Positions 4,816-63,574 of a DNA stretch of 64,000 nt are shown here, piece after piece. Below the pieces are notes generated by a model, which saw only the letters and a list, made by a program, of their open reading frames with translations, searched no databases and was not told the DNA's origin. The stretch lies in NCBI GenBank assembly GCA_930986645.1, contig CAKNJS010000001.1:124001-188000 (forward strand). Reading direction: 5' to 3'. Positions within the stretch are counted from its first letter, which is position 1. The number at the start of each line of letters is the position of its first letter. A program made the position numbers and the translations under genes. Origin of the DNA: an uncultured Lachnoclostridium sp. GTDB taxonomy: Bacteria > Bacillota > Clostridia > Lachnospirales > Lachnospiraceae.

Positions 4816-4887
4816 AAAGGCGGTTTGGCGGCTCGATCCTGCAGTATCTGTTCCTGTCCCGTGACCGGACGACCAGACAATACGGAC

Positions 4888-4918
4888 AGCCGCGGTTCCT
4901 TCAGGACCGCGGCTTTTT
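4888..4918 (+). terminator. Rho-independent terminator
   Basis: AGCCGCGGT-tccttcagg-ACCGCGGCT followed by a T run. Confidence 0.85.
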
Positions 4919-4995
4919 GAAAAAATATTTTCCCCGGCGGGGAGTATAGTACAGATATCGAGAAAACAAATGAGAAAGGCCGGAGAGTGAGAATT

Positions 4996-6291: not shown

Positions 6292-9267
6292 ATGGATCAG
6301 GACAGATTTGTATTTATCAGCTATGCATCAAAAGAAATGAATATTGCAGGAAAAGTCTGCTCGTTTCTGGAAGAAAACGGAATCAGGTGCTGGATTGCAC
6401 CGCGAAATGTAAATGCCGGCAGCAACTATGCAACTCAGATTGTAAGCGCAATTAAAAGATGTGATATTCTCGTTCTTCTTGCTTCAGAGAATACGAACAG
6501 CTCCGGTCATGTAAGTAATGAGGTGAGTATTGCTTTTGACAATAAGAAAACTATCATACCTTTTAAACTGCAGGAGTTTGAATTTACAGACGAATACCTG
6601 TATTTCCTCGGAAGAAAACATTGGATCGAGGCTCACAGAGATATTGCGCAGGGACTTGAAACGCTGAAAAAAACAATCCTCTCGTTAAGGAATCCTTGTG
6701 CTGCTTCACAGAACCGGACAGAGACGCCGAAGAAAGATATTCCGGAAAAAGCAGCAGCTGCGGAGTCTGAGAATCAGCATGGAGAGGCAGGACCGTCCAC
6801 ATGGCATAGAGACGAAATTGTAAGTCTGATCATCAGCAAAAGCATGAAATATCCCTATAATATATACTCAAAGATTGAGGGAGAAGATGCGTACAATAAG
6901 ATCTGCTCTGCGGCACAGGAGATGTTTCAAGAGACAGTGAAGGTATATCGGCATAACCGGCTGATGGAATATGACAGAGTTCTGCCGGAGCTGCTCGCAG
7001 AAGAACTTTCACGGGAAGGCGAGTCCTGCATACAGGTGCAGGGACTTCCGGGAAGCGCCAAGAATATGCTGCTTCAGCTGGCGTTCTACCGGATGCTGGA
7101 CCTGTTCAGAAAAGGTGAGAGTGACCGGCTTCCGTTTTATATATCTGCAAGTTATTATGAGAAAGTGCCATATAATCCGGATAACGTATACGCTCAGATG
7201 AAGGACATTATAGAGAAAGAATTCCATGAATTTTTCGAATATGTAAAAAGTCATCCAAAGGTGCATCCGGTCCTTTTCATAGAGGCGGTCAGAGAACATA
7301 ATGTGGCAAAAATTTCACCGGAAAATGTTGTGTTTGATCTGTGGAGGCCTTTCGGGAGATTCAGCCGAGTCTGTGCTGTTGATGTAGGTCTTATCAAAAA
7401 CAGGTCAAGGCTGAAACGTGTAATCCCGATAGCCGGAGACAGCAAGGGCTATACCCTTGTCACTCATCAGATACCGATTGACGACAGGGAGGCGGCGTTC
7501 CGTCTGATCAAAAGTGTTTTTACAATTTATCAGTATGATCTGAAGGCAGAGGATACATATAAAGTGCTTCAGGCTCTGAAATTTCCTACCATTGATATTT
7601 TTCTCGTGCGGCTGATCGCAAAAGAAATGATGTCCTGCTATGATTTTTCAGATATCCGTCTTACAGATATGTATGAAAAGCTTGCTCTTTCCGAGCTGTA
7701 TGGAGATGAGGAAAAGTTAAGAAGCGTGGCGGAAGAACTGTACGCTTATGTGTTTGATCAGTCCTATAACATGAACACGGAGAAATACAACGGAGCCCTG
7801 TGGTCTCTTCCGCATAAGCATAATACTTATCTCGAGTTTCTGATCGCTTATTATTTTACAGATAAAATCAGAAAATTCCGGGAGGATACGGACTATACTT
7901 TTTTTGGAACTGTGCTGACAGCTATGGAAAACCGCTTTGCGGCATCATTTATGAAGGATGACTACGGACTTCAGGAGACTATGCTTGAGTTTATCCGGGA
8001 AAATTATGAGACGTTTCATATTCATCAGAAAAGCAATGCAGCATACTGGCTGGGGAAGATGACCTATAAAAATCTTTCAGATGAAGCGGTTGCCATACTG
8101 ACTTCCGAGTTTGGAAAATATAAAGGAATCGTGAAGGAAAATAACAGAAATACACAGGAAAACTGTGACAATCATTTCTTATTCCGGTCAGTCTGTACGG
8201 GGCTTCTGAATCAGGGACAGGTGAATATACTGGATGAATATCTGTGTATTGTTGTCACCAATGACATTGCAAATGCGATCAACCGGGGCGCGGTTATAGA
8301 ATATTTCGGAGATAATTATCAGATTGCGGCATATGACGCATACTATCTGGATACAGATCTGAGTACTGGGGAGCAGGCGGTAAAAATACTGAACAGCCGT
8401 ATTGAGAGGGAATTGGAGGAACATTCCGGGAAATTTGTGGAAAAAGATCTGGTAACGATGCTCACTCTCCTGCAGGCGCGCATTCAGAACAAACGCAGTA
8501 CGCTGAAGTTTGATATCCGCCCGCTGGTGCAAAAAGCGCTGGAATATCTCAGAGTTTACCAGACGAGACCGCAGAATATTGTATCCTCAAAGCTGCTTTT
8601 CTATTTTCAAAGTGTAGAGGAGGATTTAAGAGTATTTCTTGAATCAGATGAATTTGATATCGGGCCTATGATCTATAATCAGTACCGGGGGTTGAAACAG
8701 GTAAAGCGCAGCCAGTGGGCAGAGCGGAATATAGAAGATCCGGAGAGTATATCCGAACATACTTACAGCGCATGGCTGATGGCTGTCTTGTTTCTTCCGG
8801 AAGAGTATGGGACAGAAGGGTACAGCAAGCGGGAAATTCTGGATATGCTTCTTGTGCATGATATGGCAGAGGCTGTAGTCGGTGATCAGACCATCAGTCT
8901 GAATGAACCGAAAAAAGAGCTTAAATCACAGAATGATGTGCTGAGAAAGCTTTTTCTAAAAGGAACTTACCCGGATATTGCCAATCTGACACATTATTAT
9001 AATGTCTGGACAGGATATTATAACGGATTAAATATAAATGCACGTACCGCGAGAGATATCAATCTGCTGCAGACGGTATATACATTCTGCGAATATTACT
9101 GTATGTATCCGGAACATTTCAGAACAGATGATATCCGCAGATGGATGCAGGAAAAGAATAATCTGAAGACCGATATCGGGTACCAGCTGTTCGACCGTCT
9201 GATCACGCATAATCAGGATTTCAGGAGAGTGCTTGATGCGGCAGATATGCAGAAAAAAGAAATCTGA
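6292..9267 (+). CDS. TIR domain - NACHT-like (degenerate P-loop) region - C-terminal HDDC2/YfbR-like HD hydrolase fusion
   Basis: N-term FVFISYASKEMNIAGKVCSFLEENGIRCWIAPRNV...NSSGHVSNEVSIAF; CIQVQGLPGSAKNMLLQLAFYRML; HNTYLEFLIAYYF; C-term RNIEDPESISEHTY...LLVHDMAEAVVGDQ. Confidence 0.85.
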   Translation: MDQDRFVFISYASKEMNIAGKVCSFLEENGIRCWIAPRNVNAGSNYATQIVSAIKRCDILVLLASENTNSSGHVSNEVSIAFDNKKTIIPFKLQEFEFTDEYLYFLGRKHWIEAHRDIAQGLETLKKTILSLRNPCAASQNRTETPKKDIPEKAAAAESENQHGEAGPSTWHRDEIVSLIISKSMKYPYNIYSKIEGEDAYNKICSAAQEMFQETVKVYRHNRLMEYDRVLPELLAEELSREGESCIQVQGLPGSAKNMLLQLAFYRMLDLFRKGESDRLPFYISASYYEKVPYNPDNVYAQMKDIIEKEFHEFFEYVKSHPKVHPVLFIEAVREHNVAKISPENVVFDLWRPFGRFSRVCAVDVGLIKNRSRLKRVIPIAGDSKGYTLVTHQIPIDDREAAFRLIKSVFTIYQYDLKAEDTYKVLQALKFPTIDIFLVRLIAKEMMSCYDFSDIRLTDMYEKLALSELYGDEEKLRSVAEELYAYVFDQSYNMNTEKYNGALWSLPHKHNTYLEFLIAYYFTDKIRKFREDTDYTFFGTVLTAMENRFAASFMKDDYGLQETMLEFIRENYETFHIHQKSNAAYWLGKMTYKNLSDEAVAILTSEFGKYKGIVKENNRNTQENCDNHFLFRSVCTGLLNQGQVNILDEYLCIVVTNDIANAINRGAVIEYFGDNYQIAAYDAYYLDTDLSTGEQAVKILNSRIERELEEHSGKFVEKDLVTMLTLLQARIQNKRSTLKFDIRPLVQKALEYLRVYQTRPQNIVSSKLLFYFQSVEEDLRVFLESDEFDIGPMIYNQYRGLKQVKRSQWAERNIEDPESISEHTYSAWLMAVLFLPEEYGTEGYSKREILDMLLVHDMAEAVVGDQTISLNEPKKELKSQNDVLRKLFLKGTYPDIANLTHYYNVWTGYYNGLNINARTARDINLLQTVYTFCEYYCMYPEHFRTDDIRRWMQEKNNLKTDIGYQLFDRLITHNQDFRRVLDAADMQKKEI

Positions 9268-9290: not shown

Positions 9291-9314
9291 GGCGGAGAGA
9301 ATCATCTCTCCGCC
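9291..9314. terminator. Perfect hairpin between convergent TIR genes (putative bidirectional terminator)
   Basis: GGCGGAGAGA-atca-TCTCTCCGCC; spans the stop codon of the minus-strand gene. Confidence 0.65.
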
Positions 9315-10708
9315 ACAGCTATATAATCATATTCGCAATACCAGAAATTCCTCTCATAGAACTGCTGCTCAAAGAGTTCAAGAGCCGCTTTCATCCATTC
9401 GTAATCATTCCGGCGGCTGATGTCTGCCGGATCTTTTTCATACGCTTTCTGGAAATAATCACTTCTGTACGCGAAACTTTCTCTGAAAAGCGCTTCACGG
9501 TCATCGTAGTCAATGCTGCTTAAATCTTTCATATTGCTGAAGACGCGTATGCTGCGATATCCGGAATCGGCAAGCTGGGTAAAGAGTTTGCGCCCGTTGA
9601 GCCGGTCGGATACCCCTTCGGCAGTCAGGCTTTTTTGTATGATCTGATTCATCAGATCATTGTCAGGGTAACAGAGCTTGCTTCCGTCGTCCGAACCTCT
9701 CAGTATGATTCTGCCGTCACCGGCAAGAAATTTGCGCAGTCTGCGGAGAACCCGGTTCGGATTCTTTAAATGGTGCAGTGTAAGAGCGGAAAATATAACA
9801 TCTATCTTGTCGATTCCGTATTTGTCCAGAATACTGCGGAACTGTTCGCTGAAATCTTCACTTTCAAGGTCTATAACTTCAAATAACATTTTCGGGTTTG
9901 TATGCATTTGACGTGCTTTTTCAATTACGGTACGGTTGTTGTCGATACAAAGTATCCTGTCCACCCATCCGGCGCTGCCGAAACGGTCTTCTGCTACATA
10001 GCCGTATGCGCATCCTGCATCGAGCACAATGGAATGCTCGTGGAATCCTCCGTGTTTTTCAATGTAATCAAGCGCAGTCTGATCCGATGACGCAGAGTTT
10101 TTCGCCTGAATCTTCAAGCGGTAAGCTTCATTTTTATAGGTCGAAGAGTATACAGATTTATGATGCTTTCCTGCTGCAAGCATCACAGCTGACTGTGTGA
10201 CGTCAGTGCGGCCAGCATTGGACTGTAATGCAGGTGAAGGGGAAGAGGAGGCTGCAGCCGTCTGCAGCTTTTTCAGTACGTTTTCTGCAAAAGTACAGAA
10301 AGTATTGATATTCATATCGGAAATACTGCAGTTCTGGTAACTCCTCAATGCTCTTGGCAGCGAATGGGCATTTATATTCCGGGTGTATGTTATGATTTCC
10401 CCGTCCTTTTTTAAACCGTTCAGAATATCAGTGTGGAAACTTTCCCATTCGTATTTGATCCAGCGGGATTCGATATAGTCCAGATCCGTTCCGATCAGAA
10501 TAAGTATTTTTGCAGTGTCCAGCGCTTTATCTATCGAGCGTTTATATACGCTTTCCCCCAGCTTGAGCAGAGTAATGTTGCTGTAGAATACCGATACTTT
10601 GCGTGCGCAGAATTCTTTATATAACAGCTCTGCTATTTTAGAATCTTCGGTGAGACGCCCTTCATCGTCAGTGTTTTTAAAAGAAATAAAAATATCAAAA
10701 TTTTCCAT
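9302..10708 (-). CDS. TIR domain fused to class I SAM-dependent methyltransferase
   Basis: N-term MENFDIFISFKNTDDEGRLTED...SRWIKYEWESF; C-term IVLDAGCAYGYVAEDRFG...ILCIDNNRTVIEKAR; start taken at the internal Met (MENF) of the 481-aa ORF. Confidence 0.82.
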   Translation of the reverse strand: MENFDIFISFKNTDDEGRLTEDSKIAELLYKEFCARKVSVFYSNITLLKLGESVYKRSIDKALDTAKILILIGTDLDYIESRWIKYEWESFHTDILNGLKKDGEIITYTRNINAHSLPRALRSYQNCSISDMNINTFCTFAENVLKKLQTAAASSSPSPALQSNAGRTDVTQSAVMLAAGKHHKSVYSSTYKNEAYRLKIQAKNSASSDQTALDYIEKHGGFHEHSIVLDAGCAYGYVAEDRFGSAGWVDRILCIDNNRTVIEKARQMHTNPKMLFEVIDLESEDFSEQFRSILDKYGIDKIDVIFSALTLHHLKNPNRVLRRLRKFLAGDGRIILRGSDDGSKLCYPDNDLMNQIIQKSLTAEGVSDRLNGRKLFTQLADSGYRSIRVFSNMKDLSSIDYDDREALFRESFAYRSDYFQKAYEKDPADISRRNDYEWMKAALELFEQQFYERNFWYCEYDYIAVAER

Positions 10709-10824
10709 CTTATGTACCTGCCGGAAACGGCTGAATCCGTTTCGCATTAAAAAGATATGCCAGTATCTATTGTTATCTTTTTCAGTATATCATAAAACAG
10801 ACATTACAGGCGACTATAAATAAC

Positions 10825-28243: not shown

Positions 28244-28269
28244 CTCCCCGCTTCACGGCGGGGAGTTTT
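28244..28269 (+). terminator. Rho-independent terminator
   Basis: CTCCCCGC-ttcacg-GCGGGGAG-TTTT. Confidence 0.9.
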
Positions 28270-28325: not shown

Positions 28326-28874
28326 ATGAAAAAAGCAAGAAAAAGACCGGCAGTTGTTCAGGCATACAGACTTGGAGAAGAGAACAGTGTAGTCGATGAA
28401 CTGACAGCGGAAGGTGAGATCCGGCTGAGAGGGGACGGAACTTTTGAGGTATTTTCAACAGAGGCTGTGGGAACTAAGGGAGAAATCGCACATACGGGAG
28501 ATTATATCAAACTTGATTCTTATGGCAGCCCTTACCCGAACAGTGCAGAATATTTTGAGAAAAACCACAGTCATATTGCAGCAGAATTTTATGAACAGCG
28601 GTCAAATGAAGTGTCCGTATGGATGTACGGAGATCCGATGTGCCCCGAGATCCGTTATCTTATGGAGAACAGGCATCTTACATTTCATGAGGATGATCCG
28701 GACAAATATTTCCGGGCGCCGTTGTGGGGAACAATCCTGTACGCTGCGAAAGATGCAGTGATTGTTTTTTACCGCATTGTGAGGGATGAAAGCGACCAGA
28801 TTACGGATGAAGAGTTTAATTTTGTTGAAAGAAAAGAGTTCGATAAGACTTATGAACTGCTTTCAGACGGATAA
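28326..28874 (+). CDS. Hypothetical protein with phage-type RKRP...GDYI pattern
   Basis: MKKARKRPAVVQAYRL...GDYIKLDSYGSPYPNSAEYFEKN; first gene after a terminator. Confidence 0.6.
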   Translation: MKKARKRPAVVQAYRLGEENSVVDELTAEGEIRLRGDGTFEVFSTEAVGTKGEIAHTGDYIKLDSYGSPYPNSAEYFEKNHSHIAAEFYEQRSNEVSVWMYGDPMCPEIRYLMENRHLTFHEDDPDKYFRAPLWGTILYAAKDAVIVFYRIVRDESDQITDEEFNFVERKEFDKTYELLSDG

Positions 28875-28934
28875 ATGATGAAAAAATAAAAAATACCGGG
28901 GTGTGTATCATGGATTATGAGAAAGGAGAAGCAG

Positions 28935-30887
28935 ATGGCGGGCGGTCGTGTGTTTTCCGGATATACAAAAGCAATTGACGAGGAGAGAGAATCGTGGTAC
29001 CGGGAGCTTGCAGGCGAAAAGATGGAGTGGGAAGATCTTGCCGCTTCAAAAACTACAAATGATCTGCTGAGAAAATTTTATTTTGTTCCGCTGTATGAGT
29101 ATCTTACAAAATATCTTCTGTATGTTTGGGAGGGGAGAACAGAGAAAGAGAAGGTCTGCGGCGGAACTGTAGATGAGCTGGTGAATCATGTAAGACTTGT
29201 TTTCCGGCAGAACGGAATGCCGGAGGAAAAATGTTCGCAGACCCATATCCGGGAAATGCTTACAACGGAGTGGAACAGAACATGGGATGGCTTTGACAGA
29301 GCTGCAGCCAGCCGGATTTTTGAGCTGGGGCTGGGGCTGGGTCTCCCGGCGGAAGATGTGGAGTCGCTTCTGCAGAAGGCAGTAAAGCGTGCCGGATTTA
29401 ATTATTATAATCCGGAAGAACTGATGGTGTACTGTGCGCTCCGGTTTTCTTCAAAAGAACATTATAGATGCTGGCAGGCTTTACTGAGAGATTATAGTAA
29501 GGTTATTCCCGAGGGAGGCGGAGCTCAGAAGGTATATCACGGCAGCACGGCGGATGTGAGAGACCGGATGCAGGAAGGTCTGGAAAGAAGTGCGGCAGGA
29601 GCAGGGCTGTACAGTACAGAAGAATGCGAGCCGGGAACTATGAATCCGGAACTGGAGAGATTTTTTGCATGGCATAAATCTGCAGTGCCGGACAGCAGGA
29701 CAGCGGCTGTTGTATTTACAGAACTTATGGAGCAGTTTACCGGAGATCATGCACAGGACATTCTGGATTTTAAGAGGGCAGACAGAAGTACGGAGGAATT
29801 TGCGGAGACTGTATTGAAAGTAGAGTACGATGCCCAATGTGAGATCAGTCTGCCTGCCGGTTCGGTGTTCTATGCACTTAAGGGACGTGAAAAGCGGAAA
29901 GTATGTTTTGTGCTGGAGGAGGACATGGTACTGCCGCATCGTGAAACAGTTGAAGCAGTGATTCCGGTGGAAGGGACGGAAACATATGCGGTGTGCCTGT
30001 CTAAAAAGTCAACACCCGGATATGCGGGAAAGGGAGTGCCGATGCGGCCGGAACAGTCAGCACTGAACGCCGGAGTATTCAGCGCCTGTACTGCCACCAC
30101 GCTTAAATATACCGGCCGGGCAGGTGAAATGAGACGTGCCGGGGGAGATATATGTGCCGTATGCTGTCCGGGGACGGAGATACCGGCAGGCACTGTGTTT
30201 TCCATCGGAACTTATTCATATAGAACGCTGGAGCACTGCAGGGCAGCGGCATTCGGAGATGTTCGGGTACGTTCCGTGTCACCCAGCAGAGAAGGCAGGA
30301 TTATTGCGGAAACAGGAGAAGTCCGCTATATGGAACATAAGCCGGAAGGAATACTTGCCGTATCAAACAGAAAGCCGGTCCGGCGGAAGAAGACAACAGA
30401 TAAGATTACGAAAGAACTGTTCAGGGACTTCCTGTATGTAAAGGACGCACAGCGCCTTGGCGCCAGTGAGAGGCGGATCGACGGTAATCTGCTCGGCCAG
30501 TGGTTTATGGAGACAGAAATCACATCTGTCCGATTTTCTAATATACAAAAACAGGCGGGCGGAGCAAAAACGCTTAAGAGAAATATAATGGAAAATTCTG
30601 AAGTGCGCAGATGCGACATTATTACTCTGGCGTTTCTGAATTTTTGTATGGATACGGATGAACAGCCCGTGGAAGAGTACGTGATGGAGGCAGATCCGGA
30701 AGCGGTTTATCAGGATTTTGTGGTATATGTGAACCGGTATCTGAGAAGATGCGGTATGATGCCGTTTTATCTGCAGAATCCCTATGAATGTATGCTGGCG
30801 TATCTGATTCAGACAGATACACCTGTTGATTCCCTCAGAAATATGTGGAAGATCGCTAATGCGGGAAAGGAAAGTTCAGATGACTGA
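28935..30887 (+). CDS. Large protein of unknown function: helical N- and C-terminal segments with a shared NPxE-type motif flanking a beta-rich centre
   Basis: Full ORF, RBS aaaggag; LLQKAVKRAGFNYYNPEELMVYCALRF vs YVNRYLRRCGMMPFYLQNPYECMLAYLI. Confidence 0.7.
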   Translation: MAGGRVFSGYTKAIDEERESWYRELAGEKMEWEDLAASKTTNDLLRKFYFVPLYEYLTKYLLYVWEGRTEKEKVCGGTVDELVNHVRLVFRQNGMPEEKCSQTHIREMLTTEWNRTWDGFDRAAASRIFELGLGLGLPAEDVESLLQKAVKRAGFNYYNPEELMVYCALRFSSKEHYRCWQALLRDYSKVIPEGGGAQKVYHGSTADVRDRMQEGLERSAAGAGLYSTEECEPGTMNPELERFFAWHKSAVPDSRTAAVVFTELMEQFTGDHAQDILDFKRADRSTEEFAETVLKVEYDAQCEISLPAGSVFYALKGREKRKVCFVLEEDMVLPHRETVEAVIPVEGTETYAVCLSKKSTPGYAGKGVPMRPEQSALNAGVFSACTATTLKYTGRAGEMRRAGGDICAVCCPGTEIPAGTVFSIGTYSYRTLEHCRAAAFGDVRVRSVSPSREGRIIAETGEVRYMEHKPEGILAVSNRKPVRRKKTTDKITKELFRDFLYVKDAQRLGASERRIDGNLLGQWFMETEITSVRFSNIQKQAGGAKTLKRNIMENSEVRRCDIITLAFLNFCMDTDEQPVEEYVMEADPEAVYQDFVVYVNRYLRRCGMMPFYLQNPYECMLAYLIQTDTPVDSLRNMWKIANAGKESSDD

Positions 30888-33800
30888 GCCAAGAGACAGA
30901 ATATCCCTTCATGCCGGAGATGAGCTGGAACTGAAGTTCCATGCCGGCGGAGGGCAGAAATATACACAGAAAGCGGTTGTGGAAGAACGAATCGGAAGCG
31001 GCGCATCCTGTCTGACATATATTGTCCGTCTTTATACAGATGAAAGAAACAGTTCACGGATGATCATGAAAGAATTCTATCCGATCTCCGGACGGGAGGA
31101 GTTTCAGATACAGAGGGACGGAACGAGATTAATGGTATCTGAGGAGACCCGGAATAATAAGACATATCAGCATATGCTGGAAGGGTTCCGGCAGGCATAC
31201 CGGACACAGGTGGAGCTTTCGGACAGCGGGGCGATGGAAGTAATGGTGCGTCCTTATCATATGGCTGAATACGGTGACTCGTGTTATATACTCAGCGATA
31301 TGCATCTGGGGACAATTCTTGCCCGCTCTCATGTGGAAACTCTGCCGGATAAACTGCGGCTTATGTACCGGACAGCCGAAGCAGTGCAGCTGCTCAATGA
31401 ACAGGGGTATCTGTATATTGATCTGAATCCGTCCAATATTCTGTGGATCCCGTCACAGCAGTCTGTAAAACTGTTTGACGTGGACAGTATTATACCGCGG
31501 GACGGTCTTGATGAAGTACACAGTATTCGGGTTACTTATCCGTATACACCGCCGGAACTGGAAGAACTGAATGAGTGGTTTGATGTGAATAAAGCCGTTT
31601 TCCTGAAACCTTCGTGGGACGTGTATTGTCTCGGACTGGTATTCTTTGAACTGCTTATGGGAAGATTCCCGACGGAGCAGGAACTGAAGAGAGGCTGTGG
31701 GGACGGGTATGAAGCAGACCGGGTCTGCAGGCAGCACGGCAGTGCAGATCCGGAAGCGGCAGCTCTGCTGCGCAGAATACTGGAAAGGTCTTTGAGCGGA
31801 AGCTTCCGGATGCGCTATCCGTCGGCAAAAGAAATGTGTCTTGATCTGAACCGTCTAAAAAAAATGCTGGATGCTCAGGAGTTTATTCCGAAGAAAGAAT
31901 ATGTGCGGGCTAATTATATGATGCAGTCATATCATATTCTCGATAAATGGCCGGCATATGAATATACGCTTAAAGAGGAAGGCTGTGAGGTGCTCGATAT
32001 AGCCATATGCGGGAAAAAGCCGCTTAGAGAACCCTTTTTCAAAGCAGTGTTTTCCTGTGTGCATATGCCGGAAATGAAGCTTCGGATTCGTCTCTGTTCG
32101 GATGACGCAGCGGAGTTTCTTGAAAAACAGAAAAGAGAGAACCCGGCACTGAGCCGGACAGTTCATATATATCTTGAGGATAAATGTGTCTGGGATGAAG
32201 CGGACAGGATTGCAGCGGGGCCTCTGATCTGTGCGGAACCGCTGGCAGAAATCCGTCTGTACGAGAAGAGCCGGGAGGAAATGCTGGCGGATGACGCTGC
32301 GTTTATCAAAAAAATAAAGTCAAGGTATCTGCTTCTGCTCTGGAATGACACCGGTGATATGATCAGGCTGCAGAATGACGTTTCACAGGGCACCGCTGTG
32401 CCTCCTGTAACTGATGTAAAAAACTGTTCCTGTTATGATGAGGAACTGTTCGGAACAAAGATTATGAAAAGGGCGCTGAATGTTCATGCATTTTATTACA
32501 GAGGGACACATGAAAGGGCTTCCCGGGAAGAGATCAGGGAATCTTTTGAGAATAATGTCTATAATATGGAGTCTTCTATGAGAAGCGCCCTCTCAGTAAG
32601 ATACAAGCTTGGGGCGGCAGGTATCGGAAAAGAATGTGAAAATCCCGGAGAGGAATTCTACCGCCGGGTATTTGCGGCAGGCGTACAGACAGAAAAACAA
32701 GCCTATGTCTTAAGTAATCTGGAACATTTAAGCTGGTGCGCCTACATGGTCATAAACGGTTGGGATCTTCCGACCGACAGTGAACTGGAAGCGTATGCCT
32801 TTACCGGAGAAAATGATTTTAAAGACATAGAGCGCCGGCTTCATCCCTGCCTTAGGGCAAGCAGGCCGGGAAACCGTCTGAAACTGCTTGAAAAAAAGCA
32901 GTGGGACAGACAGAAACTGCCGGGAAAGGTGAGGAGCGGACTGGATGATCTGGAACTTATGTGTCTGAAACTTCATCAGACTGCGCGGAGAAAGACAAGG
33001 GAAATCCGGCCGGAAGTAAATGCGCTGTGTGACCGTCTGGAGCGCAGGCTGGGCAGATGGACAGACGAGAGGCTTCAGGAGGCATTCCGCTGGCTTGTTA
33101 CAGTCAGGGAACGTGCCTTTGCAGGAGAAAGCAATGCGGAACTTGTATGGAATCAGGCGATGAGACAGCTTGTCCGCCTGTGCGGTGAGATATGCAGGCA
33201 TGACCGTGTTGTGCGGGAAGAGCTGAAACGCCTTGACAATAAGATGCGGGCAGTGCATGAGTATAATGCTTTCCATGATTATAAAAAGGCGGATGAGGAT
33301 ATTGTGAGGGGAATTCCCGGAATCCTCTCGGAAGGAAGGATAAAGACTATAGTAAGGCCTTATCTTCAGGGAAGAGAAAACCATTGGAAGAATATTCTTT
33401 CCACCCTGTTTCTGGAACCGGAAGAGACGGTGTTTATCCCTGTAGAAGGGGACGAAATTGATGTGGAGTTCTACAATGAGTTTTTGCGTTCCCGCGGATG
33501 CGATGCAAGAATTTCCATATGCGGCATGGAGGATACTGCATATATCGGAAAAGACTGTGCCGTAGATGTGACCGGTCTGGATGCAGAGGAGCTGGCGGGA
33601 GTTTCCAGATATCCCGCACTGCGGGACAGGCATCGCATTATGGTCAAGAACCGGAAACTGATCGGACTTGACGATCCTGCTGTGGAAATGTATGCGAGAA
33701 AAATTCATCTGACCGTGGAAGAAGTATTCTATCTTTTCGAGGCCTGTATGGATTCCGACAGAAAGGAAAATGCGATCCTCGGACTCAGCTCAAGATATCA

Positions 33801-34890
33801 TGGAATCTGGAATGCATATAAGGAAATCGGTCCCCGGGGATGGAAAAAGCTGATCGAGCAGCTGGTCCATGCTGAAAAGGAGAAGACAGTAATATTTGCA
33901 GCGGGGGACAGAGAAAGAAATAAAGCTTATGCGACAGAACCTGTCAGCGGCAGGGCACTCATTCTGACGGGGCTGGATCTTGTATTTGCAGGATGTCTGG
34001 AGAATGGTCTGATCAGTGCATACCGGCTCCCCGGTGAAGAAGATGACCTGCCGGTGGAATTTTCTACGGACAGCGGAAATGTGGCAGCAGTGCTTGAAAA
34101 TCTGTCCCTTCAGGCAGACGAAGCTCCTCTCCGGCACAGATACGTATTTGAGCACGGTGAGAAAAAGACACAGGGTATGCAGGAAGCACAGAAATATTAT
34201 CTGGTAAGAGACAGGTCACTGTATGTCAGCCTCTTCTGCAGAGAGGGCGCCGTGCCGGAGCCTGCAGAAAACGGCGCCGCATCGTCAGCGTTTATTGGCG
34301 AAAGCCTGCATATACTGGAACAACACGGCCTTCAGGGAGCAGGAGGCCGCCAGAACCTGATCCAGAAGCTCCGGATCGCCTCGGAAGAGGAGGAGACGCA
34401 CATTACTTTTAAGTACGCATCGGAAGCGGTGAGAGCATGTCTTCAGAGAGAGGGAAATATTCTGGAGGCAATGATATATTTTACTTGTCTTGAAATGGGG
34501 ATATTTGACGATCTGAATATTAATTCCGAATTCAGCTGGAACAGATCGGTTCCCGGCAGAGATGACGGCCATATTGTCAATAATGAGATAGACATCATCG
34601 GTACAAAAAATATGAAAACTTATTTTATCTCAGCTAAAATGACGATGCCGGAGACGGCGCATCTCACGGAAATTAAGTATTTTGCCGATCATTTCGGAAT
34701 AGACGGTCAGGCAGTGCTGGTCACATCCAACAGCCGGACAGCGGATGATGCCGTACAGGGAGCGGACAGCCGGGCTGTGAGGAGCCGTCTGATGGGAGTA
34801 AAATATATCAACAGAACCGTTATCGATGAGGGAAAACTGGGAGACGCCATAAGGAATATTGCAGAACAGAGGGAGGAAAGTGTTTTATGA
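30880..34890 (+). CDS. Atypical protein kinase - RyR-like - CARF-like - PD-(D/E)XK nuclease (Card1/DUF1887-like) fusion
   Basis: ERIGSGASCLTYIV, MIMKEFYP, YIDLNPSNILW, KLFDVDS, SWDVYCLGLVFFELLMG; NLEHLSWCAYMVINGW...RRLHPCL; LFLEPEETVFIPVEGDE...RKIHLTVEEVFYLFEA; NNEIDIIGTKNMKTYFISAKM...LTEIKYFADHFGIDGQAVLVTS. Confidence 0.8.
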   Translation: MTEPRDRISLHAGDELELKFHAGGGQKYTQKAVVEERIGSGASCLTYIVRLYTDERNSSRMIMKEFYPISGREEFQIQRDGTRLMVSEETRNNKTYQHMLEGFRQAYRTQVELSDSGAMEVMVRPYHMAEYGDSCYILSDMHLGTILARSHVETLPDKLRLMYRTAEAVQLLNEQGYLYIDLNPSNILWIPSQQSVKLFDVDSIIPRDGLDEVHSIRVTYPYTPPELEELNEWFDVNKAVFLKPSWDVYCLGLVFFELLMGRFPTEQELKRGCGDGYEADRVCRQHGSADPEAAALLRRILERSLSGSFRMRYPSAKEMCLDLNRLKKMLDAQEFIPKKEYVRANYMMQSYHILDKWPAYEYTLKEEGCEVLDIAICGKKPLREPFFKAVFSCVHMPEMKLRIRLCSDDAAEFLEKQKRENPALSRTVHIYLEDKCVWDEADRIAAGPLICAEPLAEIRLYEKSREEMLADDAAFIKKIKSRYLLLLWNDTGDMIRLQNDVSQGTAVPPVTDVKNCSCYDEELFGTKIMKRALNVHAFYYRGTHERASREEIRESFENNVYNMESSMRSALSVRYKLGAAGIGKECENPGEEFYRRVFAAGVQTEKQAYVLSNLEHLSWCAYMVINGWDLPTDSELEAYAFTGENDFKDIERRLHPCLRASRPGNRLKLLEKKQWDRQKLPGKVRSGLDDLELMCLKLHQTARRKTREIRPEVNALCDRLERRLGRWTDERLQEAFRWLVTVRERAFAGESNAELVWNQAMRQLVRLCGEICRHDRVVREELKRLDNKMRAVHEYNAFHDYKKADEDIVRGIPGILSEGRIKTIVRPYLQGRENHWKNILSTLFLEPEETVFIPVEGDEIDVEFYNEFLRSRGCDARISICGMEDTAYIGKDCAVDVTGLDAEELAGVSRYPALRDRHRIMVKNRKLIGLDDPAVEMYARKIHLTVEEVFYLFEACMDSDRKENAILGLSSRYHGIWNAYKEIGPRGWKKLIEQLVHAEKEKTVIFAAGDRERNKAYATEPVSGRALILTGLDLVFAGCLENGLISAYRLPGEEDDLPVEFSTDSGNVAAVLENLSLQADEAPLRHRYVFEHGEKKTQGMQEAQKYYLVRDRSLYVSLFCREGAVPEPAENGAASSAFIGESLHILEQHGLQGAGGRQNLIQKLRIASEEEETHITFKYASEAVRACLQREGNILEAMIYFTCLEMGIFDDLNINSEFSWNRSVPGRDDGHIVNNEIDIIGTKNMKTYFISAKMTMPETAHLTEIKYFADHFGIDGQAVLVTSNSRTADDAVQGADSRAVRSRLMGVKYINRTVIDEGKLGDAIRNIAEQREESVL

Positions 34891-37199
34891 TATGGGGAAT
34901 ATGTTTTTTTCTTGCGGTCATATCGCTTGCAGCCGGCGCAGCTGTATTTTTTATCCGCAGACATAAAGAGCGGGGAGAAATAAAGTATCTGGGTGCGGGG
35001 GTATTTCTGGCATGCGTGGCTGCATGTTTTCCGGGGATGTGTCTCTCAGACCAGAAGGGGTTCGCGCTTGCAATGAGTGTGTCGCACAGTATCCGTATGT
35101 TTGTGGTAGACACAGGTGTATCAGATATTGCGGATCTGCTTTCGCCGGGTACCCTCGGCATAATGTTTTATCCATACAAGATACTTGTGTGCCTGCTGTA
35201 TCTGCTGGCACCGGTATTTACTCTGAGTGTAGTATTGCGGTATTTTTCTAATTTTTTTGAGAGGATCCGTCTGGCTGGCCGGAGAAAACAGGATCTGTAT
35301 ATCTTCTCGGATCTCAACACACGTTCACTGGAGATTGCGGCGGGGCTCAGCCGGGAAATGAAAAATACAGGAAAGAAACAGAGTATTATTTTCTGCCGCT
35401 CAAATGATAAGGATGATATAAATACTGAACTGGAGGAGAAGGCCCGGGAATTGAATGCGGTTTTTGCCGCAGGAGATATGCTGCAGCTCCGCCTGAATAA
35501 CAAAAGGCGGTATACGTCTTATTTCCATATATCAGATGATGATGAAAAAAATATTGATGACACGCTTCAGATGATTGAGAATATGACCGGAGATTCGCCG
35601 TGGCTGAAATCGGGAAAGCTGAATCAGGAAAATGCTGCGGTATACTGTTATTCATCGAATGCGGAGGCAGAGATCCTGCTTGATGCTGAAGAAAAAGAAA
35701 ATCTCAGAGTAGTGCTCATGAATGAAATGAGAGATGCAGTGTATGAACATCTGTACAGATATCCGCTTTACTTGGGAGTCCGTATGCCGGAGACAGAGCG
35801 TCAGGGGGAAGAAACACAGAAACGGAAAGAAACAGGAGAAAGGGAAAGCCTGCCTCTTCTGATCGTCGGGGGAGGAAAGACAGGAATCGAATTCCTGAAG
35901 GCCGCCTTGTGGTGCGGTCAGATGAAGGATTATGAGCCGGATATCCATCTGATTGATGTCAAGGGCAACCTGATCCGAAAAAAAATCGAGGAAGAATGCC
36001 CTGAGCTTTTCAAAAAAGAGGCAGGATATAAAATCGATATTCATAAGGTCAATATATTCAGCAGCATGGCGGAGCGTTATCTGGATACACTTCCCGAAAT
36101 CGGTTACTGCGTAGTATGCCTTGGAGAGGATGAAGATAATATCCGGGCAGCTATGTGGCTGAAAAAATACTTTTATATGAAAGGAAGAACACGCAGTCCT
36201 CTGATCTGTACTTATATAGAAAGCAGCAGAAAACGGGCTGCTGTGTGGAACCTGCATGAAAATACAAGGTCAAAGAAGACATTGTATTACGGCATCATTC
36301 CGTTCGGCAGCAGGGAGATGTATTTCGGGGACAGCTCGGATGCAGCATTTGTCATGGAATATCTCGCGCTGGGCGTGCAGGCTCATTACTGGAGACTGAA
36401 CAGAGAATCCGGGGATGAAGATCGCAAAAATGCAGTTAAGAATTTTTATGAGAAGCAGAGCAACAGGCGTTCCAGTATTGCCAACGGCCTTCACATCGGG
36501 TCCAAATTGTGGGAGCTGGGACTGGGGATCATGCGTGTTCCCGGGACAGGGGCAGAAAAAGAAATGTTCGGCCGGTATATACGTCCGGCAGATTTTGCGG
36601 CAGAAACAAAAGGAAAACTTGACGCTTATTATAATCTGGAACATGAGCGGTGGATGGCGTATGTGCGGACGGAAGGCTGGCGGCTCGCAACAACGGGGGG
36701 CAGCAGTCTGAAAGAGATCAGAGAGTGTTACGAAGAATACTGTGCGGTGTTTAAAAACCAGAATTATATGATGAAACTTCATCCGGCGCTGGTCCCTATA
36801 GATAAACCCGGCAGTGAGCAAGCTGCTCTTTGGGAGGTTGAGGAGATGATGTCCGAGGTGTCCCGCAGGCAGGGATTCGGGGAGTGGTCGCCGGATTACG
36901 TGCAGTCAGATGTGGAGGTAGTGAACCATATCGGTGATATTGTCGGAGGAGCATGGTGCGGTGCCGGCGGAATCAGTATACACGGAATACAGGCCAAAGA
37001 AGGGGAATGCGTGATCTGCAGGCTCGGCGATATGATGCGGTATTACGGTCAGATATATGAAGAGAGGAAAAAGAAAGGAACGGCGGAAGAGATCATAGCG
37101 CTGCGGGAGACCGTGCGGCGCTGCTGTTACGGAGTAATACGCACAGATCAGGGCAGTGAAAAAGAACAGGCATATCAATGGCTCAAAAAAATAGCATAA
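34887..37199 (+). CDS. Membrane protein with two TrkA-N-like Rossmann segments and a C-terminal RyR-like domain
   Basis: N-terminal TM segments; DLYIFSDLNTRSLEIAAGL; PLLIVGGGKTGIEFLKAALW...IHLIDVKG; NLEHERWMAYVRTEGW...KLHPALVPIDKPG. Confidence 0.8.
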   Translation: MIWGICFFLAVISLAAGAAVFFIRRHKERGEIKYLGAGVFLACVAACFPGMCLSDQKGFALAMSVSHSIRMFVVDTGVSDIADLLSPGTLGIMFYPYKILVCLLYLLAPVFTLSVVLRYFSNFFERIRLAGRRKQDLYIFSDLNTRSLEIAAGLSREMKNTGKKQSIIFCRSNDKDDINTELEEKARELNAVFAAGDMLQLRLNNKRRYTSYFHISDDDEKNIDDTLQMIENMTGDSPWLKSGKLNQENAAVYCYSSNAEAEILLDAEEKENLRVVLMNEMRDAVYEHLYRYPLYLGVRMPETERQGEETQKRKETGERESLPLLIVGGGKTGIEFLKAALWCGQMKDYEPDIHLIDVKGNLIRKKIEEECPELFKKEAGYKIDIHKVNIFSSMAERYLDTLPEIGYCVVCLGEDEDNIRAAMWLKKYFYMKGRTRSPLICTYIESSRKRAAVWNLHENTRSKKTLYYGIIPFGSREMYFGDSSDAAFVMEYLALGVQAHYWRLNRESGDEDRKNAVKNFYEKQSNRRSSIANGLHIGSKLWELGLGIMRVPGTGAEKEMFGRYIRPADFAAETKGKLDAYYNLEHERWMAYVRTEGWRLATTGGSSLKEIRECYEEYCAVFKNQNYMMKLHPALVPIDKPGSEQAALWEVEEMMSEVSRRQGFGEWSPDYVQSDVEVVNHIGDIVGGAWCGAGGISIHGIQAKEGECVICRLGDMMRYYGQIYEERKKKGTAEEIIALRETVRRCCYGVIRTDQGSEKEQAYQWLKKIA

Positions 37200-37215: not shown

Positions 37216-37252
37216 AAAAAATACAGGCGGCGCATGTGCTGCCTGTATTTTT
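37216..37252. terminator. Bidirectional terminator
   Basis: AAAAATACAGGC-ggcgcatgtgct-GCCTGTATTTTT between convergent genes. Confidence 0.9.
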
Positions 37253-56673: not shown

Positions 56674-56745
56674 GGCTCCGTGGTCAAGCGGTCAAGACGC
56701 TAGCCTCTCACGCTGGAATCAGGGGTTCGATTCCCCTCGGAGTCA
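56674..56745 (+). tRNA. tRNA-Glu (anticodon CTC)
   Basis: ggctccg acceptor pairing cggagtc; anticodon loop CTCTCAC in stem ctagc/gctgg; T-arm aggggttcgattcccct; no encoded CCA. Confidence 0.92.
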
Positions 56746-56748
56746 CTT

Positions 56749-56776
56749 GAAAAGCCTTGGAAACAGGGCTTTTTTT
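56749..56776 (+). terminator. tRNA-Glu terminator
   Basis: AAAAGCC-ttggaaaca-GGGCTTTTTTT. Confidence 0.75.
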
Positions 56777-56783
56777 CGTATCT

Positions 56784-56814
56784 GGTAATCAAGAGGTAAT
56801 CAAAAAGGTAATCA
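56784..56814 (+). repeat. Three direct repeats GGTAATCA
   Basis: Copies at 56784-56791, 56795-56802, 56807-56814, 11-12 nt spacing. Confidence 0.9.
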
Positions 56815-57022
56815 GACATATGTTCGATTGTCTAATACATAATAAGGAGGAAGATCTGTACATATTGTAAATACCTCATATCACAGGAAATTATAGAAAA
56901 TTATTACATAGCCGGTTGATTTTCCTACGAGAGTCAATCGGTTTTTTTATGCCCATTTACATAGCCATTTCCCACAAAGGAGTGGCTATTACTATATCCG
57001 CGAAAGGAGGGAACTATTTACA

Positions 57023-57847
57023 ATGCAGAAATGCAAGGTGATTGCGATTGCCAATCAGAAAGGGGGAACAGGAAAGACTACGACAACAGTGAACTTAGGT
57101 ATTGGACTTGCAAATGAGGGCAAGAAAGTTCTGCTTGTGGACTGTGATCCGCAGTCCGATCTTACGACATCTTTAGGATGGCAGGGAGAAGATATTTCGC
57201 TCACACTGTCTGTACTCATGGAGCAGATGATCCGTGATGAACCGGTAGATGTGCATGAGGCAATTTTACATCATGCCGAGGGAGTCGATTTGATTCCTTC
57301 AAACATTGAACTGTCCGGAATGGAAGTTATGCTGGTGAATGCCATGAGCCGGGAGTTTACATTAAAATCCTGTCTGTCAGAGATGCGGAAAGATTATGAC
57401 TATATCCTGTTAGACTGCATGCCGAGTTTAGGCATGCTGACAATCAACGCTCTTGCAGCGGCAGACAGTGTAATTGTTCCGGTACAGGCTCATTATCTCC
57501 CGCTCAAGGGTATGACACAGTTGGTAAAAACCATCCGAAAAGTACAAAGACAGATCAATCCGCAACTAAAGGTGGACGGCGTGGTACTGACACTGGCTGA
57601 TATGAGGACGAATCTGGCGAAAACAACTGCAGAGTGCCTGAAAGAAAACTACGGAAAAATGTTGAAGATTTATGACACGATTATTCCCGTAGGAATTAAG
57701 GCGGCAGAGACCAGTACAGTAGGGAAAAGCATTTATGCGTATGACGGGAGAAGTACCGTTGCGAAAGCATACCGGGAGTTTACGCGGGAGGTGATACAGG
57801 GTGACGAAAAGAAACGTCATAGAGATGAACCTGCCCAAAGCAGATGA
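57023..57847 (+). CDS. parA: ParA-family ATPase
   Basis: [43 protein letters not shown]. Confidence 0.95.
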
Positions 57848-58736
57848 CCTGTTCAGTACGCAGGAAGAGCGCGACAATGAAAACCGAGAGTATGTAAAAG
57901 CAATCCCATTAGATCAGATTTATGACTTCCCGAATCATCCGTTTAAGGTACGGATGGATGAAAAGATGCTGGAGATGATCGAGAGTGTGCAGGAATACGG
58001 CGTTCTGTCTCCGGCAGTCGTCCGACCAAAGGAGGACGGCACCTATGAGATGATCGCCGGACACCGCAGGAAACTGGCAAGTCAAAGGGCGGGTCGCTCA
58101 GATATGCCGTGCATTGTGCGAGATCTGACAGATGAAGAGGCAACAATTATCATGGTTGACTCCAATCTTCAGCGTGAAGAGATATTGCCGTCCGAGAAAG
58201 CCTTTGCTTATAAGATGAAACTGGATGCAATGAAAAGACAGGCAGGGAGACCAAGTAAAAATTTGTCGCCACTGGCGACAGATTTAATCGGCAAGCGATC
58301 AGATGAGATTTTAGGAGCACAAGTTGGTGAAAGTAAAGATCAGATTCGCAGATATATCCGCCTCACAGAACTTATCAAGCCAATTCTTGACATGGTGGAT
58401 GATAAAAAGATTGCTTTACGACCTGCTGTGGAATTGTCTTATCTCTCTCAGGACCAGCAGGAGATGCTTTTGGACACCATGCAATTACAGGATTGCACAC
58501 CGAGCCACGCGCAGGCAATTAAATTGCGTAAGTTTGCAGAAGAGGGCAGACTGAATGAAGATGTGATCTTATCAATCATGTCGGAAGAAAAAGGAAACCA
58601 AAAAGAACAGTTCCGTATACCAAGAGAACGTATCAATAAATATTTTTCTCCGGGGGCGTCTGTCAAGCAGATCGAAGATACGATTATCAAGGCATTGGAA
58701 CTGTACCGTAAAAGGGAGCGGAGCAGGGAACGTTAA
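57801..58736 (+). CDS. parB: ParB/Spo0J-type partition protein
   Basis: [17 protein letters not shown]...[16 protein letters not shown] start overlapping parA. Confidence 0.93.
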
Positions 58737-58737
58737 G

Positions 58738-58784
58738 GGCTTTCCGCCGAGGGAGAAGTCTCTCCATCGGCAGGAAAGCCTTTT
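58738..58784 (+). terminator. Terminator after parB
   Basis: GGCTTTCCgCCGA...TCGGcaGGAAAGCC-TTTT. Confidence 0.8.
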
Positions 58785-58907
58785 GTCGTTCTCCCCCTTC
58801 CCACACCCTACCCCCTCTGGATTACCAGCCCATACCAGCCGAAAAGAGAAAGGTATCGCTGTACAGTAAATCATTCAGAGAGGGGGATTTCAGAGGAAAG
58901 GAAAAAA

Positions 58908-61900
58908 GTGATGAAAGAAAAGAAGAAACATGGAAGAAGAGTGACAGCATTCCTTTTGAGTGTGGTCACGGCTTTGACAACGATATTCTCGTCCGGACTG
59001 CCTGTACTGGCGGCAGATGGAACAATCCAGTTTAATTCTGGTGAATATATCTCTTATGGGGATTATCGCACTACGAAAATGACGTTTGACGGGGATAACG
59101 TGGCATATTGTGTGGAACCTTTGAAGAAAACGCCACAGGCAGGAACCTATTCCTATAACCTGATGGCAACAGATTCTCCGGTGAGGAAAGCACTATATTA
59201 CCTTCCCGGTGGATATGGTTATGATGCCAATATCAAAGATCAGTATTTAAGTGGCTGGTCAGAGGATCAAGCCTATGTGATCGGACACCTGACCGTGGCT
59301 TATATTTATTCCGGGTATGACGCGGAAAGCGGGGCATTTTATGGTGCGCCACAGAACTATATCGACAAGGCAATCGCAGTTGCAAATGCGATCAGTGCAT
59401 TGCCGAATCCGCCCCAGTCTTTTCGGGCGTTTATTGTACCGTCAAATAACGATCAGACCATTGCCGGGAGCTGGTATCAGAAACCTTACGGCTATATTGA
59501 AATCCGTAAATCAACTGCAAATGAGGAAATTTCCGGAGAGAATGGAAATTACAGTCTTGCTGGAGCAGAGTATGGCGTGTACAACGGGGAGACACAGGTA
59601 ACAACTTTGGTGACAGACGATGATGGCTATGCAAAGTCTGGAGAGCTGGAGAGTGGAAGTTATACGATTCGGGAGCTGAAAGCCTCACCGGGCTATGCTG
59701 TTGATACGCAAAGTTATAACGTAACTGTGGAATCAGACGTGACAGTTTCTGTGGAGGTAACAGAAGTGCCGCAGAGCAATCCTTTGAGCCTGCTGGTGAA
59801 GAAGATTGATTCTGAGACCGGAGAGGGAACAGTGCAGGGAAATGCATCTCTTGCCGGGGCGGAATTTGCCGTGAAATATTATACCGTACAGTCCGATGAT
59901 GATCCGGCGGCATCTGGTACAGAGCCTGAGAGGACATGGATCTTCCGGACAGATGAGGAGGGCAGGATCGAGTTTACGAGCAAATATCTGGTATCCGGGG
60001 ATGAATTCTATTATCAGATGGACGGAACAACACCCTGTGTGCCGCTGGGAACGGTAACGGTACAGGAGACAAAAGCGCCGGAAGGGTATCTGTTAAATGA
60101 ATCTGTCTTTGTACAGAAGATCGTGGTAGGGGGAACGATGGAGACGGTGGAGACGGTGGAGTGCTACCAGACCACGACTGTTGCCGATCAGGTCTACAGG
60201 GGAGATCTGGAGTTTGTGAAAGTATCGGATGGAGACCTGAACCGTCTGGCGGATGTTCCATTTTCGATTACGTCAAAAACAACAGGTGAAAGCCATGTGA
60301 TCGTAACAGATTGGAACGGGTATGCCAGCACATCTGCTGACTGGACGCCCCATACATCTAATACAAACCGCGGGGAGAGCTCATCTGATGGTATCTGGTT
60401 CGGAACAGGCGAGCCGGATGATACAAAGGGAGCGCTACCTTATGATACTTATGTGATCGAAGAGCAGCGGTGCGAGACGAATGAGGGGATGAATCTGCTT
60501 AAGATTGAAGTGACCGTATACCGGGATTCTGTGACGATTGATTTGGGAACGCTGACGGACGACCGGATCGAGATCGGAACGACTGCATTGGATCAGGAGA
60601 CTGGATTTCATCTCTCTAACCCGGATCAGAAAGTTACCTTGATTGATACGGTAGAATACGAGGGATTGAAAAAAGGAGTGGAATACAGGCTGACCGGGAC
60701 ACTGATGGATCAGGAAACGGGAGAGCCAATCCTTGTGGACGGAAAGGCAGTGACCGCAGAGACAACATTTACGGCGAAGAAATCCAGCGGCAGCGTTGAG
60801 GTGGAATTTACCTTTGACGGAAGTGGGCTGCAGGGCAAAACGATCGTTGTGTTTGAGGAACTTTATCAGGAAGACTTAAAATTAGCGGTTCATGCAGATC
60901 TGGAAGATAAAGACCAGACCATCTATTTCCCGAAAGTAGGTACAAAGGTAGCGGATACGGAGACCAGGGAGCAGATCGCCAATGCAGGAAAGGAAGTAAA
61001 ACTGACGGATACCGTTTCTTATGAAAACCTTGTAGCTGGGGAGAAATACCGGCTGACCGGCACTTTGATGGATCAGGAGACAGGAGAGGCGATCTTAGTG
61101 GATGGAAAAGAAGTGACCGGAGAGACTGAATTTACCGCAGAGGAATCTTCCGGTACAGCCGAAGTCGCCTTTTCCTTCGATGGAAGTACACTGGCAGGTA
61201 AGACCGTAGTGGTATTCGAGAAACTCTGGTATGGGGATGAGCAGATCGGTTTCCATGAAGATCTGGACAGCAAAGAGCAGACGCTGGTATTCCCTGAGAT
61301 CAAGACCGAGGCGAAGAACCCGGCAACAGACAGTCAGGTGGGAACTGCGGAGCAGGAGACGACAATCCTTGATACAGTGTCTTATCATAACCTGATCCCC
61401 GGCAAGGAGTACACCCTGAGAGGTGTGTTGATGGATCAGGAGACAGGGGAAGAATTTCTGGTCAATGGAGAGCCGGTGACATCGGAAGTTGAATTTACTC
61501 CGTCTGAACCGAATGGAAGTGTGGAGATGACATTTACTTTTGACGGAAGCGCGCTGACAGGAAAGACACTGGTGGTATTTGAGGATGTTTATTACAACGA
61601 AAAAACTGTAGCCAGTCATGCAGAGATCGAGTCTGATCCACAGAGTATTTATTATCCGGAGATTGGAACACAGGCAAAGGATGGTGAGGACGGAGATCAG
61701 GAGGCAAAAGCAGATAAAGAGGTAACGATCATTGATACTGTCTCTTATAAAAACCTTACACCAGGGCTGACCTATCAGGTTTCCGGTGTACTCATGGATA
61801 AAAGTACAGGTGCGGAGCTGCTGATTAATGGAGAAGCTGTGAACGGACAGACAGAGTTTGTGCCGGAGAGTGCAGAGGGAACCGTGGACGTGACCTTTAC

Positions 61901-62219: not shown

Positions 62220-62335
62220 TGATCATGTGTGAAACAGAGAATGGAAATATAACGGATTTAAAAGCTATAGTAGAGCAGATGGCAGAAACTGATCTTCTTG
62301 TTATAGAGTTTCAGGAGGACAAAAATGAAGAATGA
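62219..62335 (+). CDS. Small 38-aa protein (not in the supplied ORF track)
   Basis: ATG overlaps the surface protein stop; MIMCETENGNITDLKAIVEQMAETDLLVIEFQEDKNEE; overlaps the radC-like start. Confidence 0.5.
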   Translation: MIMCETENGNITDLKAIVEQMAETDLLVIEFQEDKNEE

Positions 62336-63459: not shown

Positions 63460-63574
63460 AATGCTGAAAGATTTTCCTTTCAGAGACAGATTGTTTATAT
63501 TTTAATATACTACAGAGAAGAAATAATGATATAATGCAGATATATGAGAAAATATCGATTTAATGGGAGATATA

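Follow-up and report, generated by a model that had tools for sequence, protein, structure and literature searches.

The window analysed here is a 64,000-nucleotide stretch of the genome of a gut bacterium, an uncultured Lachnoclostridium species (GenBank assembly GCA_930986645.1, contig CAKNJS010000001.1, positions 124,001 to 188,000), and our subject is an operon of four genes within it, g1 to g4, in which a protein kinase fused to a nuclease and a membrane protein both carry a domain of the ryanodine receptor (RyR) type. The genes and their boundaries are as follows (positions are those of the window).

28326..28874, plus strand: g1, 182 aa, domain of unknown type
28935..30887, plus strand: g2, 650 aa, helical N- and C-terminal parts with an inserted beta domain
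30880..34890, plus strand: g3, 1336 aa, kinase, TrkA-N-like, RyR, helical, CARF and Card1-type nuclease parts
34887..37199, plus strand: g4, 770 aa, membrane protein
28244..28265, plus strand: intrinsic terminator-like hairpin 5' of the operon, from a terminator scan
37216..37252, no strand assigned: hairpin with A/T tails, lying between g4 and the acyltransferase gene that converges on it, seen in the sequence

A conserved four-gene operon

An earlier note, made from the sequence alone, described four tightly packed same-strand genes of which the last two junctions overlap, and the open reading frames were confirmed as described; g2 and g3 overlap by 8 bp, g3 and g4 by 4 bp. The note also placed a terminator on either side. 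The upstream one was recovered by the scan, whereas the downstream hairpin at about 37216-37252, visible by eye in the sequence, was not listed by the scanner; it is probably a bidirectional terminator. Among named relatives that have all four genes, the closest is an uncultured 'Ruminococcus' metagenome-assembled genome from chicken, in which the operon is syntenic. The products of g1 to g4 are 84-88% identical between the two, compared with 95-98% for most flanking proteins, and the ratio of nonsynonymous to synonymous substitution rates (dN/dS) is 0.05-0.12 for g1 to g4 versus 0.03-0.04 for flanking genes. Given the synteny, the identity pattern and the dN/dS values, g1 to g4 are, as judged from these comparisons, real genes under purifying selection that evolve faster than their neighbours, and the operon holds as a unit.

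Six close g3 loci were compared (the window, G695/L076, G709/L189, L077, G236/L078 and G364/L079; G and L denote genomes and loci). In all six, g2 lies immediately upstream of g3; four of the loci have an adjacent g1 and four have a g4, which bears out the co-occurrence on which the earlier proposal depended. More distant g3-type proteins that combine RyR with a Card1-type nuclease extend beyond the family, to G652, G528, G613 and, as a split version, G513; G260 has one as well. In most of these loci a PP2C-like gene, recognised by eye, lies upstream.

g3 joins a kinase, a RyR domain and a Card1-type nuclease

Five domains were located in g3. Since E-values of pairwise HHalign comparisons lack database calibration, profile-profile calls are given here as probabilities.

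30880..31884, plus strand: protein kinase domain, K64, D181, N186, D200
31987..32259, plus strand: Rossmann domain homologous to the TrkA-N-like domain of g4 (97.9% by profile comparison)
32677..32955, plus strand: RyR domain (97.7% by profile comparison), motifs E615-H616-x-x-W619 and H655-x-C
33337..33879, plus strand: CARF domain of the Card1/VC1899 type (97.5% by profile comparison), DVTG motif from residue 896
34372..34839, plus strand: PD-(D/E)XK nuclease, NEID 1235-1238 and SAK 1251-1253

The kinase matches PF00069 above the Pfam cut-off (E 3.2e-11). The VAIK Lys, the HRD-type Asp with its Asn and the DFG-type Asp of active Ser/Thr-type kinases are all found, and K64, D181, N186 and D200 are kept in 10 of the 10 aligned proteins having a kinase domain. 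At the other end, the PADLOC CARF_PDDEXK models match residues 1164-1278 (E 5e-15), that is, the nuclease part only, and therefore the CARF domain was checked separately by profile-profile comparison. Against Card1-family proteins of related genomes the CARF and nuclease parts together reach 99.8%, and the CARF region alone reaches 97.5%, with its DVTG aligned to the Card1-family DITGG. The nuclease motif is intact in four of the close loci: NEID and SAK occur in the window and G695, NEID in G709, and DEID with STK in L077. Thus the earlier calls of a kinase with its catalytic residues, a RyR-like segment and a Card1/DUF1887-like module all stand. Searched against phages, g3 gave kinase-level matches only.

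Does the CARF domain identify the signal? The earlier note pointed to cyclic oligoadenylate, and g3 could be an effector of that kind whose CARF is the main sensor, reading messengers from type III CRISPR or from the cyclases of cyclic-oligonucleotide-based antiphage signalling systems, with RyR in a secondary role. Indeed, the CARF and nuclease parts are homologous along their length to the Card1/Can2 family, which is activated by cyclic tetra-adenylate in type III CRISPR (PMC11229360). Against this, the CARF signature DxTGG is reduced in g3 to DVTG-L, the second Gly being lost, and is missing altogether in L078, whereas the RyR pocket is invariant; one Cas10 model found no Cas10/Csm1 above its curated cut-off in the window genome (an assembly of 2.7 Mb, ~89% complete); and no cyclase was seen in the loci examined, where no systematic cyclase search was made and TIR genes are present. 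With Cas10 unseen and the CARF glycine lost, we consider a cyclic-oligoadenylate trigger unlikely.

g4 is a membrane protein with the same putative sensor module

Three parts of g4 were distinguished.

34887..35246, plus strand: N-terminal membrane segments, hydrophobic windows at residues 1-25, 34-55 and 89-121
35844..36326, plus strand: TrkA-N-like Rossmann domain, GGGKTG at 328-333, GxGxxG-type segment
36609..36821, plus strand: RyR domain, E585-H586-x-x-W589 and H632

The RyR call for g4 has a probability of 98.7% by profile comparison; PF02026 is matched by 5 of the 11 g4-family members (best 3e-9), and solved bacterial RyR domains in the PDB match at ~1e-6. Pfam detects TrkA_N weakly, in one g4-family member (E 0.0024), and the GxGxxG-type Rossmann segment is common to g3 and g4 at the 97.9% already given. 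Profiles of relatives were required for these assignments: scans of single window proteins with Pfam, NCBIfam and PADLOC returned no RyR or TrkA match, and window g3 and g4 by themselves score below the PF02026 threshold. With three hydrophobic stretches, a RyR domain and a Rossmann domain shared with g3, g4 is the membrane protein with TrkA-N-like and RyR-like segments that had been described.

A potassium channel of the Trk/RCK type was considered for g4 and rejected, as a TVGYG-like selectivity filter motif was not found in it. Relatives encode separate RyR channel genes with a TVGYGD filter, at times paired with g4-like genes; such pairs, of a TVGYGD-type RyR gene with a g4-like membrane RyR gene, were seen at L032, L033 and L130, with a TIR gene directly downstream at L130. 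A fragmentary second g4 copy lies in the window genome (L034, G000:C1:51182-51603) 3' of a 1203-aa 'SSTFRDM' protein that is DUF4062-like by eye, and in G226 (L029) a protein similar to the latter stands directly upstream of a g4-like gene. A search of a plasmid collection gave no g4 relative.

The RyR domains keep ligand-pocket residues

Animal ryanodine receptors carry the RyR small-molecule-binding domain, and in other systems TIR enzymes produce alarm signals of the cyclic ADP-ribose (cADPR) kind. Two TIR products, 2'cADPR and 3'cADPR, are bound or cleaved by RyR-domain proteins of phages via H75, W78, H100 and D117, residues common to animal RyR R12 domains; the phage protein RyDEP hydrolyses 2'/3'cADPR with H75/D117, and among eight further phage homologues seven did not cleave the signal and six bound it (PMC13232231, a 2026 preprint). 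By motif and profile alignment, not structure, the counterparts of H75/W78/H100 are H616/W619/H655 in g3 and H586/W589/H632 in g4. The motifs EHxxW (E615-H616-x-x-W619) and HxC (H655-x-C) do not vary among the 11 g3-type proteins. The candidate equivalent of D117 in window g3 is D676; 6 of the 11 g3-type proteins have this Asp, and in window g4 no Asp aligns there.

These residues could also be read the other way: the RyR domains would be signal-terminating glycosidases, host off-switches like RyDEP, and g3 and g4 would limit the TIR signal rather than receive it. There is the phage precedent for 2'/3'cADPR hydrolysis, D676 stands about where D117 is expected, and standalone RyR genes adjoin g3-type genes (G528, G613 and G260). 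On the other hand, the Asp is absent in 5/11 g3-type proteins and from its aligned place in g4, building RyR into kinase-nuclease and membrane proteins is a receptor-like layout, and most of the further phage homologues were non-cleaving. This makes glycosidase function of g3 and g4 distinctly unlikely. Standalone RyR genes of 93-102 aa were separately noted beside g3-type or TIR genes at L184, L185, L118 and L028; they seem to have both members of the catalytic His-Asp pair, and they are candidates for host RyDEP-like signal-removing enzymes.

TIR genes accompany many of the RyR genes

If the RyR domains receive an ADP-ribose-type signal, where is the TIR enzyme? In G709, of the same genus, the gene order is g1-TIR-g2-g3-g4 within one operon. 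In G124, g1 is fused to a protein composed of TIR, transmembrane and beta-propeller parts and is followed by g4; in G201 a remnant of the C-terminus of such a protein precedes g4; and in G236 a gene for TIR with leucine-rich repeats lies between g4 and g2-g3. TIR domains of related operons match PF08937, ThsB_TIR. Among the distant g3-type loci, TIR genes lie within a few kb in G528 and G260. Across the family, 11 of 20 RyR loci have a TIR gene at a distance of no more than ~9 kb, compared with none of 15 control stretches taken from those genomes (Fisher p = 4e-4), a test in which TIRs from this analysis served as seeds for the TIR profile and some stretches were clipped by contig ends.

In both the window genome and G695 the contig that holds the operon also encodes a TIR-propeller paralogue (35-45% identity), at a distance of ~40 kb and, in the window species, upstream of the operon; the sister genomes G307 and G703 have neither g3 nor the TIR-propeller. 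The entire ~50-kb block of the window genome from the TIR-propeller through g4 is absent in G703, a genome of the same genus, where a nicotinate-phosphoribosyltransferase-like gene (by eye) and the acyltransferase gene stand ~255 bp apart at the corresponding site (L200, G703:C4, 9647-9902). A single insertion, more than one, or a loss from G703 could each account for the difference. The block also holds a Tubulin_2/vWA-like cluster, a hydrogenase cluster and two further TIR genes:

6292..9267, plus strand: TIR-HD protein, 991 aa, in the ~50-kb variable block
9302..10747, minus strand: TIR-methyltransferase protein, 481 aa, in the ~50-kb variable block

Both are unusual fusions, the former to an HD phosphohydrolase. 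The TIR-HD protein is a possible candidate source of signal, with a putative link to the operon. The cluster preceding it (window 2-6231 and L086, G000:C1 ~117-124 kb) comprises genes for a vWA-like secreted protein, a Tubulin_2 protein (E 7e-59), a coiled-coil/transmembrane protein, a 1346-aa membrane protein and a transglutaminase-like lipoprotein; in G236 an equivalent Tubulin_2/vWA cluster is contiguous with g4-TIR-g2-g3.

An operon separated from its TIR gene might be a decaying relic. In the window species no TIR lies between g1 and g2 and the genome's other copy of g4 is already a fragment. However, two species without the operon TIR both keep all four open reading frames intact, dN/dS is 0.05-0.12 and catalytic residues are kept, and decay is thus very improbable.

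g2 carries a baseplate-like domain

The earlier note spoke of an unknown protein next to the kinase fusion; g2 does have a recognisable part, a phage-baseplate-like beta domain.

29787..30389, plus strand: all-beta domain of g2, residues ~285-485, resembling phage and contractile-injection baseplate wedge (Baseplate_J, T4 gp6 domain II)

AlphaFold models residues ~330-440 of the beta domain mostly at a predicted local distance difference test score (pLDDT) of 85-94, and poorly outside the domain; Foldseek places phage and contractile-injection baseplate proteins at the top of its matches. One g2 homologue matches PF04865 (Baseplate_J, E 2e-4) and PF21515 (T4 gp6 domain II, E 5e-4), and two match phrog_6, 'baseplate wedge'. 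The likeness, by fold and homologue profiles, is limited to this domain, and among g1 to g4 there are no tail or injection-system neighbour genes. The N-terminal 80 aa of g1 are weakly like the phage families phrog_419/4502.

The N- and C-terminal parts of g2 resemble proteins of ~400 aa whose genes, elsewhere in the Lachnospiraceae, neighbour those for a kinase, a PP2C-like and an FHA-like protein. A recurrent cassette of a protein kinase, a PP2C-like protein, an FHA-like protein and the ~400-aa g2-like protein was seen at L064, L065, L068 and others. Because g2-like proteins keep such company in many Lachnospiraceae, and because type VII secretion-like genes follow closely on the cassette in G236, the operon could instead be a housekeeping kinase signalling cassette, concerned with the cell envelope or with secretion control rather than defence. 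Its distribution speaks against this: it is patchy within the genus, sits in a ~50-kb block absent from G703, and occupies a different genomic site in G709. It also evolves faster than its flanks (84-88% versus mostly 95-98%) and has a nuclease and TIR partners, and a housekeeping role seems to us quite unlikely. The type VII secretion-like genes in question, an EssC-like FHA/FtsK protein and WXG100-like small proteins by eye, lie shortly 3' of g2-g3 (L036, G236:C16).

At the far end of the window (56674-64000), a tRNA-Glu is followed by ParA/ParB-like, large adhesin-like and RadC-like genes, a region resembling the edge of an integrated element.

A TIR-linked signalling system?

We favour, by a modest preference, the view that the operon is a second-messenger system linked to TIR and acting in defence, or in conflict, in which RyR domains receive an ADP-ribose-type messenger in the manner of Thoeris. 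Of the earlier proposal of a nucleotide-sensing conflict system, the general idea, the operon unit and the domain calls survive; the TIR genes in related operons, the TrkA-N-RyR sensor shared by g3 and g4, and the TIR/cADPR-class ligands of RyR domains (PMC13232231) change the picture of what is sensed.

The order of events might be as follows. On sensing trouble, a TIR protein would make an ADP-ribose-type signal; in relatives this would be the protein whose gene sits between g1 and g2 or is joined to g1. For the window species, the TIR-propeller paralogue ~40 kb upstream would probably supply the signal in trans. The TrkA-N-RyR modules of g3 and g4 would bind it through their conserved His-x-x-Trp and His. 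In g3, binding would license the kinase, with g2 as its partner (joined, in distant relatives, by a PP2C-like phosphatase), and also the CARF-gated Card1-type nuclease, which would degrade nucleic acid; in g4, it would change the membrane module and so alter ion flow or membrane integrity. g2 would be a dedicated kinase partner, whose baseplate-like domain may sense invading tail parts or mimic them as a decoy. The operon as a whole would probably serve in defence against phages. Because g3 has both CARF and RyR, gating by two signals is also possible.

Several observations weigh against this proposal. The window operon itself has no TIR gene, its g1-g2 gap, like that of G695, being ~60 bp with no TIR gene between, and no TIR was seen beside g3 in L077 (a 10-kb contig) or L079 (a 16-kb stretch). 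The TIR-RyR linkage may partly reflect a general clustering of defence genes, which lies outside the controls of the test. The AlphaFold model of the g3 tail is of low confidence (pLDDT 57), with a weak best Foldseek match, to VC1899. Finally, the nuclease motif is degenerate in L078 and L079; given its loss in two of the six close g3 homologues, nucleic-acid cutting is not always needed by g3-type proteins.

A wider and more tentative reading, which we hold to be possible though not the safer bet, is that TrkA-N-RyR modules form an undescribed class of bacterial immune receptor that takes TIR-made ADP-ribose signals and drives kinase-nuclease and membrane proteins, the host counterpart of RyDEP and a prokaryotic form of the cADPR-ryanodine receptor pathway. 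The TIR gene inside the operon of a relative suggests such a bacterial counterpart. Direct action of cADPR on ryanodine receptors has long been disputed, and a TIR enzyme together with RyR-domain kinase, nuclease and membrane proteins in a bacterial operon makes a small testable system for this question. If true, the proposal would account for the RyR-domain sponges and glycosidases of phages, which could derive from, or act against, the host receptor; it would also add to TIR immunity a receptor class and a multi-output effector, with a baseplate-like domain inside a host signalling protein.

Relation to known systems

No account of an operon of this kind, or of a host TIR-RyR system, was found in the open literature searched (subscription papers were outside its scope), and novelty is accordingly provisional. 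Fusions of kinase to CARF are known: the 2014 CARF survey, whose text does not mention RyR, describes kinase-AAA-CARF-wHTH (winged helix-turn-helix) proteins (Makarova 2014, PMC4012209), from which g3 differs in that no AAA, Zn ribbon or wHTH was found in it and RyR and a nuclease are present instead. The neighbouring Tubulin_2 cluster, with its tubulin, vWA-like and membrane proteins and its junction to g4-g2-g3 in G236, is reminiscent of the GAP1-N2 tubulin/vWA conflict systems, although GAP1 and GTPase components were not identified in it; the paper on those systems mentions neither RyR nor TrkA in its text (Kaur 2020, PMC7159879). To the kinase defence proteins PD-T4-6 and MADS MAD6 the likeness of g3 is limited to the kinase (29.6 bits compared with the MAD6 cut-off of 460). 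Card1/Can2 of the VC1899/PF09002 family corresponds to the C-terminal CARF and PD-(D/E)XK nuclease of g3, but here the module is fused behind kinase, Rossmann and RyR domains, its CARF motif is degenerate, its nuclease motif is lost in two relatives and no CRISPR neighbour was seen; by neighbourhood, g3 is not a CRISPR ancillary protein.

Nearest in proposed logic is Thoeris (ThsB TIR with ThsA), which likewise links a TIR to a receptor-effector; the TIRs of related operons match PF08937, and the messenger proposed here is of the ADP-ribose type. The receptor, however, is RyR/TrkA-N and the effector a kinase, a CARF-nuclease and a membrane protein, and Pfam, NCBIfam and PADLOC found no ThsA-type SIR2-SLOG, TM-macro or macro domains in g1 to g4. 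The window operon would work like Thoeris and is not a member of it, because it has no ThsA-type effector and its copy has no TIR. With the RyDEP phage proteins (PMC13232231) the operon shares the RyR/R12 domain, the His-x-x-Trp and His ligand residues and the link to cADPR signals; RyDEP is an evasion enzyme or sponge of the phage, whereas here RyR is placed inside multidomain proteins of the host.

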